Shown here in pieces: positions 33,074-53,778 of a DNA stretch of 64,000 nt. Under the pieces are notes generated by a model, which made no database searches, was not told the origin of the DNA, and saw only the letters and a program-made list of their open reading frames with translations. The stretch lies in contig NZ_ML214297.1 of the NCBI RefSeq assembly GCF_004698125.1, forward strand, positions 248,001 to 312,000, read 5' to 3'. The translations under genes were made by a program, and so were the position numbers. Origin of the DNA: Halosimplex halophilum. Its GTDB lineage: Archaea > Halobacteriota > Halobacteria > Halobacteriales > Haloarculaceae. Position 1 is the first letter of the stretch. Every line of letters begins with the position of its first letter.

Positions 33074-33159
33074 TCGTACGTTCGGTTGTAACTGTTTGCC
33101 GGTGGTTCGCCGAGCGGTCCGGCGAACCCCGGAAATAATTTACAACCGACCGTATCAGG
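33074..33159. repeat. Long imperfect inverted repeat (hairpin element B)
   Basis: The arms are 33076-33111 and 33121-33157. Outer perfect part: CGGTTGTAA 33083-33091 with TTACAACCG 33140-33148. Inner perfect part: GGTTCGCC 33104-33111 with GGCGAACC 33121-33128. The segments between align with four mismatches and one gap. The loop is nine bases. The right end is CCGTATCAGG, the same ten bases that end the inverted repeat at 52916-53004. The AAATAATTTA inside the right arm can also serve as a TATA box. Confidence 0.65.
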
Positions 33160-51327: not shown

Positions 51328-52277
51328 ACGACGAGCGCACGCGAGCGGACGAGGCCGACAGCGGCGCGCCCGCCGACAGCAGCGGCGCGACCTCCGACGA
51401 CGGGAGCGGTCCGTCCGCCGCCGACCCCGATCCCGGCACCCGCGACCCCGACGCCCTGCTCCGGCGGGCGGGGGTCCGGGGCGACCCCGACCGCGACCAG
51501 CACTTCCTGGTCGACGACCGCGTGCTCGACCGGCTGCCCGAACACGCCAGAGAGGCGAACGTCGACCTCTCGCACGTGCTGGAAATCGGCGCGGGGACCG
51601 GCGCGCTGACCGACCGGCTGCTCGCCGCGGCCGACCGGGTGACCGCCATCGAGCGCGACCCCGACCTGGCGGCGTTCCTCCGCGAGGAGTTCGCCGCCGA
51701 GATCGACGCGGGCCGGCTCACCGTCGTCGAGGGCGACGCGCTGGAGGTCGAGCTGCCCGAGTTCACCGCGTCGGTCTCGAACCTGCCGTACGGCCCGTCG
51801 AGCGAGCTGGCCTTCCGGCTGCTGCCCGAGAAGCGCCCGCTGGTGCTCATGTTCCAGCGGGAGTTCGCCGAGCGGATGGCCGCCGAGCCGGGGACCGACG
51901 ACTACGGCCGGCTGTCGGTGACGGCGGGTCACTACGCCGACGCCGAGGTGGTCGAGCCGGTCCCGAAAGAAGCGTTCTCGCCGCCGCCGGCCGTCCAGAG
52001 CGCGGTCGTGCGGACGACGCCCCGCGATCCGGACTACGAGGTCGACGACGAGGAGTTCTTCATGGACTTCCTGAAGGCCGTGTTCACCCAGCGCCGGAAG
52101 ACGATGCGCAACGCCGTCCGCAACACCGCCCACATCTCCGGGCTGGGCGACCCCGACGCGGTGGTCGAGGCCGCGGACGAGGACCTGATGAGCGCCCGCG
52201 CCGGGACCGTGACGCCCGCGGAGTTCGCGGACCTGGCGACGCTGGCCTACGAGGTGGGCGGGCCGGGCGAGCGATGA
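51324..52277 (+). CDS. rsmA: 16S rRNA dimethyladenosine transferase RsmA/KsgA
   Basis: 317 aa. A haloarchaeal acidic N-terminal extension of about 45 residues is followed by DQHFLVDDRVLDRL. Motif I is EIGAGTGALTDRLL, motif IV SNLPYGPSSELAF. The domain continues to LKAVFTQRRKTMRNAV, the C-terminal RNA-binding helix. It dimethylates two adjacent adenines near the 3' end of 16S rRNA, a late step of 30S maturation. Confidence 0.94.
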   Translation: MNDERTRADEADSGAPADSSGATSDDGSGPSAADPDPGTRDPDALLRRAGVRGDPDRDQHFLVDDRVLDRLPEHAREANVDLSHVLEIGAGTGALTDRLLAAADRVTAIERDPDLAAFLREEFAAEIDAGRLTVVEGDALEVELPEFTASVSNLPYGPSSELAFRLLPEKRPLVLMFQREFAERMAAEPGTDDYGRLSVTAGHYADAEVVEPVPKEAFSPPPAVQSAVVRTTPRDPDYEVDDEEFFMDFLKAVFTQRRKTMRNAVRNTAHISGLGDPDAVVEAADEDLMSARAGTVTPAEFADLATLAYEVGGPGER

Positions 52278-52915
52278 CCGAGGAGCGGTCCGGGGAAGGC
52301 GGCACTGCGGACGGTGACGACGCCGAGACCGCCGACGGGAAACCAGGGCTGGCCGCCCAGCGCGACGTGGAGCAGGTCTACCAGCCCGCGGAGGACTCGA
52401 AGCTGCTGGCCGACGCCGTGGTCGAACGCGTCGAGCGCGGCGACCGGGCGCTCGACGTGGGCACCGGGTCCGGCTACGTCGCCGCGCGGATGGCCGAGGC
52501 GGGCGCCGACGCGGTCGGCGCCGACCTCAACCCGCACGCCTGCCGGCAGGCCGCCGGGGTCGGGATCCCGGTCGTCCGGGCGGACCTGACGGGGCCGTTC
52601 CGCGACGGCGCCTTCGACGTGGTGGCGTTCAACCCGCCGTACCTGCCGACCGAGCCCGACCGGGAGTGGGACGACTGGATGGAGCGGGCGCTGTCGGGCG
52701 GCGAGGACGGCCGCGCGGCCATCGACCCGTTCCTCGACGACGTGGCGCGGGTGCTCGCCCCCGACGGTGCGGCGTACCTGCTCGTGAGTTCGCTCACCGA
52801 CCCCGACGCCGTCCGGGAGCGCGCGGCGGCGAACGGGCTGGCGAGCGAGGAGGTCGCCAGCGAATCGCACCCCTTCGAGACGTTACTGGTGGTGCGGTTC
52901 GCGCTCGACCGATAA
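52274..52915 (+). CDS. HemK2/MTQ2 family protein methyltransferase
   Basis: 213 aa. After an acidic leader, VYQPAEDSKLLADAVVERV starts the domain. Motif I LDVGTGSGYVAARM is near residue 57, and the catalytic FNPPYLPTEPD near 118. The family methylates the Gln of the GGQ motif in the archaeal release factor aRF1. It overlaps ksgA by ATGA, the usual archaeal order. Confidence 0.92.
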   Translation: MTEERSGEGGTADGDDAETADGKPGLAAQRDVEQVYQPAEDSKLLADAVVERVERGDRALDVGTGSGYVAARMAEAGADAVGADLNPHACRQAAGVGIPVVRADLTGPFRDGAFDVVAFNPPYLPTEPDREWDDWMERALSGGEDGRAAIDPFLDDVARVLAPDGAAYLLVSSLTDPDAVRERAAANGLASEEVASESHPFETLLVVRFALDR

Positions 52916-53004
52916 CTCATACGGATTATTGCAAGCGTTTACCGGGTCGACCGCGCGACTGCGTGCGGTCGATCCCTGAATGACTTGCGATAATCCGTAT
53001 CAGG
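52916..53004. repeat. Inverted-repeat element between convergent genes (hairpin element A)
   Basis: ATACGGATTATTGCAAG (52919-52935) is mirrored by CTTGCGATAATCCGTAT (52984-53000) with one mismatch. The arms extend to 20 bases with a second mismatch. Inside is GGGTCGACCGC / GCGGTCGATCCC. The full 89 bases fill the gap between the stop of the HemK2 gene and the stop of the convergent membrane-protein gene, and the right end overlaps that stop. The right end CCGTATCAGG recurs in the hairpin at 33074-33159. Confidence 0.75.
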
Positions 53005-53680
53005 TCGAGGCGGGGGCCGTGGTCTCGTCGTTCGCAGAGGCCGTCCCGTCGACGGGTGGCGCGGCCAGTTTCGCGCCGGCGGCGAACAGGACCGCGCCGA
53101 CGGGCACGGCGAACAGCGGGCCTACGACGAGCCCTTCGATGAGGGTCGCGGTGACAGCCCCGTGCGCACCGCCGTAACAGACGAGCGCGACGAAACTTCC
53201 GAGCAGCCAGCGACGCTGGCCGCGAGCCCACGCCACGCCGGCGACGAAGAAGAGGACGCAGCCGATCCACCAGAAGTCGGCGGTTTCGAACGTCCGAACC
53301 GCGAGTTCGACGGGACCGGACGGCGGCGTCCACTCGGTGATGTACTCGGGCGTCGGGACGACGTCGGTCCGGGGCCTGCGGAAGGTGTCGAGCGCCAGCG
53401 GCAGCGGTGCGAGCGGGACGGCGATGCACGCCAGCGGTGGAGTCAGCGACCGGAACCGTCCCCGAACTGCGGTCGCGACTCCCCACGCGGCCGCCGGCGC
53501 CCAGACGAACGCCAGTAACATCGCGAGGGCGGCGAACGCGTAGTAGCGGCCGGCCGCCGGCACGGCGTAGTGATATCGCATGTAGTAGGGGTACAGGAGC
53601 AGCACGGCCAGCGACCCGGCGGCGACCCCCGCGCCGACGGCCCGAGTTCCGGCGGGACCCAGTCGAGACAGCCGTGACAC
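53000..53680 (-). CDS. Membrane protein of unknown function
   Basis: 226 aa from a GTG start (VSRLSRLGPAG). Five to six hydrophobic segments: GVAAGSLAVLLLYPYYM, YAFAALAMLLAFVW, LACIAVPLAPLPLAL, FWWIGCVLFFVAGVAWA, LLGSFVALVCYGGA and LVVGPLFAVPVGAVLF. The start at 53680 is chosen because a TATA-like element (rc TTCATACG near 53705) lies 26 bases upstream. The alternative GTG at 53755 adds 25 basic residues. No family is recognised. Confidence 0.65.
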   Translation of the reverse strand: MSRLSRLGPAGTRAVGAGVAAGSLAVLLLYPYYMRYHYAVPAAGRYYAFAALAMLLAFVWAPAAAWGVATAVRGRFRSLTPPLACIAVPLAPLPLALDTFRRPRTDVVPTPEYITEWTPPSGPVELAVRTFETADFWWIGCVLFFVAGVAWARGQRRWLLGSFVALVCYGGAHGAVTATLIEGLVVGPLFAVPVGAVLFAAGAKLAAPPVDGTASANDETTAPAST

Positions 53681-53778
53681 GCTCTCGCGTTCCGCTGAAA
53701 GACGTATGAACTTTCTGACTCGATAGCCGCGACGATTCGCCGACTGAATTACCACAGTGCATCAAACGAGATGAGAAA

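Follow-up and report, generated by a model that had tools for sequence, protein, structure and literature searches.

The DNA analysed here, referred to throughout as the window, is a stretch of 64,000 nucleotides from Halosimplex halophilum (contig NZ_ML214297.1, positions 248,001 to 312,000), and its feature of interest is an imperfect palindrome lying between two convergent genes. On the + strand a gene for a HemK2-like methyltransferase (52274-52915; PF08241 and PF05175) ends in a TAA stop codon at 52913-52915, and on the - strand a gene for a product of 251 amino acids (53000-53755; start codon uncertain), labelled a membrane protein in a preliminary description of the sequence, ends in a TGA stop codon at 53000-53002 (TCA on the + strand). 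The membrane-protein product has no Pfam match, and a search of genome contigs found one relative of it, in Halosimplex pelagicum R2. The palindrome (52919-53000, no strand assigned) occupies the gap between the two stop codons, has one base in common with the membrane-protein stop codon, as the preliminary description had stated, and leaves the methyltransferase gene undisturbed.

This is the longest inverted repeat reported in the window with arms no more than 200 bases apart. It had been described as 89 bases long, with 20-base arms carrying two mismatches and an inner stem; the repeat and its inner stem are present, but the palindrome itself is 82 bp, the 89 bases taking in the flanking triplets, and its outer arms are 17 bp (52919-52935 on the + strand and 52984-53000 on the - strand) with one mismatch. 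The inner stem-loop (52942-52978) pairs 52942-52957 with 52962-52978 around a loop at 52958-52961, and corresponds to helix 2 of the structure in our model R2. Models R1 and R2 both recognise the palindrome, which scores 88.4 bits on the - strand against a covariance model (E 6.3e-19 in a search of the window; E-values from these models are rough), and the sole Rfam 15 match, far below its gathering score, falls outside it at 52791-52821. The + strand folds at -61.8 kcal/mol, compared with a mean of -28.9 for shuffled sequences (z = -10.45), and the - strand at -49.7 (z = -6.26); none of 200 shuffles folds as well on either strand.

Within the palindrome the mobile unit is 80 bp long (52920-52999, no strand assigned; TACGG...CCGTA), and a direct triplet, TGA on the - strand and TCA on the + strand, flanks it on both sides: a distal copy at 52917-52919 and a gene copy at 53000-53002, the latter being the membrane-protein stop codon and the target of the element. 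The unit is missing from a relative within Halosimplex (genome G002, locus L223; here and below, G labels denote sampled genomes and L labels loci), in which the same gene pair is separated by an element-free spacer; it carries one TCA at the point occupied by TCA-80 bp-TCA in the window. The correspondence is exact to the letter, and the sequences put the end of the membrane protein at the same position in both genomes. The palindrome belongs to a family of mobile DNA hairpins, 80 bases long, that has spread in salt-loving archaea.

The host genome (G000, 4.47 Mb) contains 16 matches to the arm given in the preliminary description, forming eight pairs of 82 bp each, and covariance model R2, built from a broader collection, identifies 11 sites, in ten of which a stop codon ends on base 1 of the element (eight by the codon model and two by an open frame only). 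Contig C1 (2.25 Mb) carries all 11 copies, and its six companion contigs carry no copy. The suggestion of a repeat family, possibly resembling a miniature inverted-repeat transposable element (MITE), is supported: the arm search returns many copies with flanking direct triplets rather than a lone one, and a relative has an empty site. The arm ends had also been said to match another element in the window; this is most likely a diverged relative of 80 bp at 33076-33155 (no strand assigned), a second copy that is intergenic and not at a stop codon. It lies between a frame of 339 amino acids and a transporter-like frame of 450 amino acids, both on the - strand, and its triplets on that strand are TGA and CGA.

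Beyond the host, matches at E ≤ 0.001 are present in 25 of 59 genomes searched, the host included, and in 147 of 292 genomes sampled from the class, in 46 of 77 genera; the larger survey scored up to 15 candidates per genome, so that copy numbers from it are lower bounds. With both strands included, the number of matches ranges from 39 to 85 in three genomes (G031, G029 and G010), and G033 has 155 arm matches. Copies occur on plasmids of Natrinema, Natronorubrum, Natronococcus, Natrialba, Halomontanus, Halapricum, Halococcus and Haloarcula. Phage records queried with one copy gave no match, nor did plasmid records queried with the window copy.

When the flanking TGA is read forward, the general layout is TGA-[80 bp]-TGA, and by our own edge calls the length is exactly 82 bp in 175 of 220 pooled copies. 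The triplet ending on base 1 is TGA in seven of the first eight copies and TAA in the eighth. The core is asymmetric, and relative to the TGA it points four times each way in these eight copies; in a larger set the split is 67 to 52, with 47 unclear. This mixture indicates that the triplets belong to the target and not to the element. In half of the eight Halosimplex copies the tip loop (columns 40-43 of alignment A2; 52958-52961 in the window) is itself inverted relative to the core, a nested flip. Our first sample comprised 200 copies, with genes called by our own simple codon-usage model; 174 were orientable, and the 26 dropped are mostly of a subfamily with ATAGTAG arms, the others having worn edges or, in two cases, ambiguous triplets. 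In five members of that subfamily an edge read as TAA, and these stayed in the count as 'other'. TGA triplets are present on both sides in 137 of the 174 orientable copies.

The outer arms differ among subfamilies (ATACGG, ATAGTG, ATAATG and others), both sides changing together; the length is retained, as is an inner motif (CCGG ... CCGGTAAA) that surrounds the stem CGACCGCACG/CGTGCGGTCG. In the genomes assigned to family f7, which is probably Natrialbaceae because an f7 copy matches plasmids of that family, the inner stem sequence also differs, and CCGG, TAAA and the length remain. Sibling hairpins with ATAGTAG arms (L304 in G151; L084-L122 in G006 and G002) have the core in common, a CTAG site and a TA duplication, and in G151 the frame of the upstream gene appears by eye to continue into the hairpin. 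Duplications of the T-N-A type are known from the IS1031 group of IS5 insertion sequences, and TA duplication at CTAG from IS630.

Other orthologous sites provide further examples of presence and absence. The copy at 542623 has its empty counterpart in a Halosimplex congener (G003), where TGA occurs once and the adjoining sequence is one base shorter. The empty site of a G031 copy in G100 has a TAG stop codon, which shows insertion at the stop and not TGA duplication; in G151 a hairpin of the ATAGTAG subfamily sits in that same TAG. An orthologous stop codon holds hairpins of two different subfamilies, one in G033 (family f1) and the other in G155 (family f7). Same-orientation hairpins at orthologous sites are found in G008 and G126 and at two sites in G100 and G151, and G032 has a hairpin of the same kind at the same place as G152 and G121 in the opposite orientation. 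At loci L046, L295 and L297, near position 1501, hairpins of one kind occupy an orthologous place with the orientation reversed between species, which suggests inversion in place or repeated insertion.

Copies are inserted at TGA triplets, which in many cases are gene stop codons. In the first sample, base 1 of the element is the last base of a called gene on the TGA strand in 95 of the 174 copies, with 77 elsewhere between genes and two within a called gene; at the same loci, stops make up 291 of 1726 (17%) of the TGA triplets that are either stops or noncoding. A second sample of 60 further loci has 30 copies at stops and none inside genes, against a background of 85 stop and 636 noncoding TGA triplets (12% stops; Fisher p 1e-11, or p 4e-7 against CTGA only). 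Across the 260 pooled copies 127 called stops fall at offset 0, and the next best offset within 60 bases has eight. Halosimplex shows the bias strongly; some genomes show it weakly or not at all. The flanks reveal a weakly palindromic target, G-W-C-TGA-G-N-C, which stop and non-stop sites share.

The number of copies, their direct triplets on either side, the letter-exact empty site that has the triplet once, the consensus of the targets, the excess at stop codons and the near absence inside genes describe an element that is very probably non-autonomous and MITE-like, an 80-bp haloarchaeal hairpin moved in trans with duplication of TGA. In the proposed mechanism a trans-acting enzyme would move the hairpin DNA, cutting with a 3-bp stagger at the T-S-A centre of G-W-C-TGA-G-N-C, and repair would duplicate the TGA triplet. 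Where that TGA is a stop codon, insertion would be nearly harmless because it leaves an in-frame stop and does not alter the protein, and such copies would therefore survive, with insertions within genes presumably lost to purging selection.

Several observations weigh against this interpretation. Just two of the 174 copies are flanked by TAA on both sides, and with targets that are almost always TGA, a duplication is hard to distinguish from a TGA that is a constant part of the element; the letter-exact empty site is a single one, that of G002. The excess at stops, weighted for the target motif, is not significant in several genomes taken alone: G033 (13/20, 45% expected, p 0.06), G019 (12/21, 42% expected, p 0.12), G009 (5/5, p 0.08) and G029 (10/26, 23% expected, p 0.05), and it is weak in G010 (10/31, 16% expected, p 0.02). 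Co-directional spacers of G010 and G029 have no excess over CTGA (7:14 versus 26:51, p 0.61), and that in the convergent spacers of Halosimplex is not significant (10:1 versus 21:10, p 0.13). On annotated plasmids, where 13 of 17 matches were read to check the gene calls and the gene table is incomplete, three or four of the 13 copies are on an annotated stop, a partial agreement with the gene calls: the end of an annotated gene falls exactly on the element at L344, L348 and L354, and at L350 once its trimmed edge is restored, eight are off an annotated stop, and L355 has an unclear edge. No mobilising partner was found in the families searched, PF01609 and PF13359. At 30 of 32 PF01609 matches (G033, G019, G010 and G031), the best three or fewer terminal repeats per locus include none with a TGA duplication or the element ends, and the PIF-like PF13359 has no match in the 292 genomes. 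Nor did any longer element sharing those ends turn up at these loci or among the arm matches listed, although G033 and G019 have more arm matches than were listed and may hold one.

As candidate partners, the PF01609 elements were rejected: among others they have 8-10 bp duplications and unrelated ends, and none has TGA. Five arm matches in G031 and G000, the two genomes with complete listings, lack a partner arm; of the four fetched, two are further small copies and two are chance-like. G010 has five copies of a 458-amino acid transposase with equal scores (L249, L253, L257, L260 and L262), four of them with 10-bp duplications, and this is probably an active insertion sequence unrelated to the hairpin. 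Among the plasmid copies, the one at L348 (Natrinema thermotolerans) occupies the stop codon of an archease gene, directly upstream of an RtcB gene that contains an intein.

The strongest rival explanation is that targeting depends on the motif only, the excess at stops being what remained after selection had cleared genes, promoters and leaders. The same motif at non-stop sites, the scarcity of copies inside genes in both samples, and the genomes listed above in which the bias is weak, non-significant or, in co-directional spacers, gone, all favour it. Against it, the pooled excess survives motif weighting, with 93 of 158 TGA-centred targets at stops (59%) where 27% is expected (p 8e-17; the weighting motif was learned from non-stop insertions in the same data); by group, Halosimplex has 25/30 at stops (28% expected) and G031 10/15 (20% expected). 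We also compared spacer types with both TGA strands pooled, placing 137 of 166 and 48 of 60 copies. Convergent spacers, which are promoter-free, have an excess at stops over CTGA in both samples (46:16 versus 48:71, p 1e-5; 15:3 versus 13:22, p 0.0015), as do co-directional spacers (41:22 versus 65:141; 15:12 versus 13:57). We regard motif-only targeting as plausible, if somewhat less than an even prospect. Motif and selection do not account in full for the residual stop preference, whose pooled odds are about 3 to 7.5 relative to other noncoding TGA or CTGA; a factor acting as a tether at gene ends would explain it, and so would a benefit conferred there.

A benefit could arise if the hairpin were kept for a role in RNA, where directly after the stop it would terminate or protect transcripts from either or both of the convergent genes, generating the bias whatever the mover. 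The preliminary description had raised the possibility of a bidirectional terminator. The very stable fold on both strands fits such a role, as does the stop excess in promoter-free convergent spacers. Both helices also contain compensating changes, with 18 of 33 pairs changed on both sides and a covariation of 0.345 compared with 0.04-0.09 for slid versions; however, arms would also co-vary under recognition of DNA ends or hairpins by an enzyme, and one of five covariation measures, that of further pair types, does not exceed shuffles (430 of 500 reach its value). A scan for bacterial-type intrinsic terminators, with a G+C-rich stem and a T run, found none in 52700-53200, and about half of all copies are off stop codons, some between divergent genes. 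Retention for an RNA role seems doubtful, and less so than two further proposals.

The first of these is that something at gene ends, such as a terminating polymerase or transcript, steers the element to stop codons, where it would duplicate the stop codon and act as a class-wide portable 3'-end module. The conserved core would then be the element proper, and its ends would be exchanged between mobilising enzymes, the ATAGTAG arms with their CTAG target and TA duplication being one such exchange; we consider this unlikely. The second, which we think improbable, is an element resembling the repetitive extragenic palindromic (REP) sequences and their doublets (REPINs), moved as a single-stranded hairpin by an IS200-type (Y1) enzyme. 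The entire element is one hairpin, extragenic and often at gene 3' ends, as REPs are, but a 3-bp target duplication is to our knowledge not expected of Y1 enzymes. Finally, a chance palindrome or a structure peculiar to this gene pair is effectively refuted because copies exist elsewhere in the genome and the class, and no shuffle matches the fold energy.

The hairpin can be compared with several known systems. Like MITEs it is short and noncoding, with terminal inverted repeats, a flanking direct repeat, many copies and empty sites in relatives. It differs in a nearly constant length of 80-82 bp, a core conserved across families, arms that change together and the excess at stop codons, and no parent transposon was found in the searches of PF01609 and PF13359. 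Ordinary MITEs keep the ends that the transposase of the parent reads, and the middle varies; in the hairpin the middle is steadier than the ends. Mobile elements in termination codons are also known among group II introns, as in groEL of Azotobacter, although these introns are kilobases long.

REPs are extragenic hairpins too, mobilised with REPINs by REP-associated tyrosine transposases (RAYTs), but they measure 20-40 bp in the available part of PMC3733652, compared with about 80 bp here, and the hairpin has a direct triplet and is often on the stop codon itself. Also haloarchaeal are the small mobile repeats (SMRs) of Haloquadratum walsbyi, which according to the portion of PMC3119063 available to us are 80-110 bp long with inverted repeats and a mobiliser that is not known. 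The 'SwitchRepeats' of that account, in which the same repeat occupies one place in opposite orientation, resemble the flipped copies at orthologous sites. SMRs are reported there to lack a target duplication, SMR-A targeting IS605-type palindromes, whereas the hairpin has a direct TGA repeat and a one-triplet empty site; the two are set apart here by description and not by sequence comparison. The palindrome-associated transposable elements (PATEs) of Haloquadratum in the same source are likewise haloarchaeal, transposase-free and associated with palindromes, but are given as having neither target duplications nor the terminal inverted repeats that the hairpin has. The accessible portions of PMC3119063 and PMC10969869 do not describe a hairpin placed on stop codons, and our literature search found no such description; ISfinder and most subscription journals were outside its reach, and an earlier report is possible.

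The hairpin explains a common feature of haloarchaeal genomes that is undescribed in the literature searched. It illustrates a route by which selfish DNA may enter compact genomes without harm, using as its landing site a stop codon that is duplicated, and it alters the 3' ends of many genes. The filled and empty sites constitute natural allele pairs with which post-stop hairpins in archaea could be tested, and the family raises the question of which enzyme recognises ends of varying sequence while the hairpin, its length and its core remain constant.
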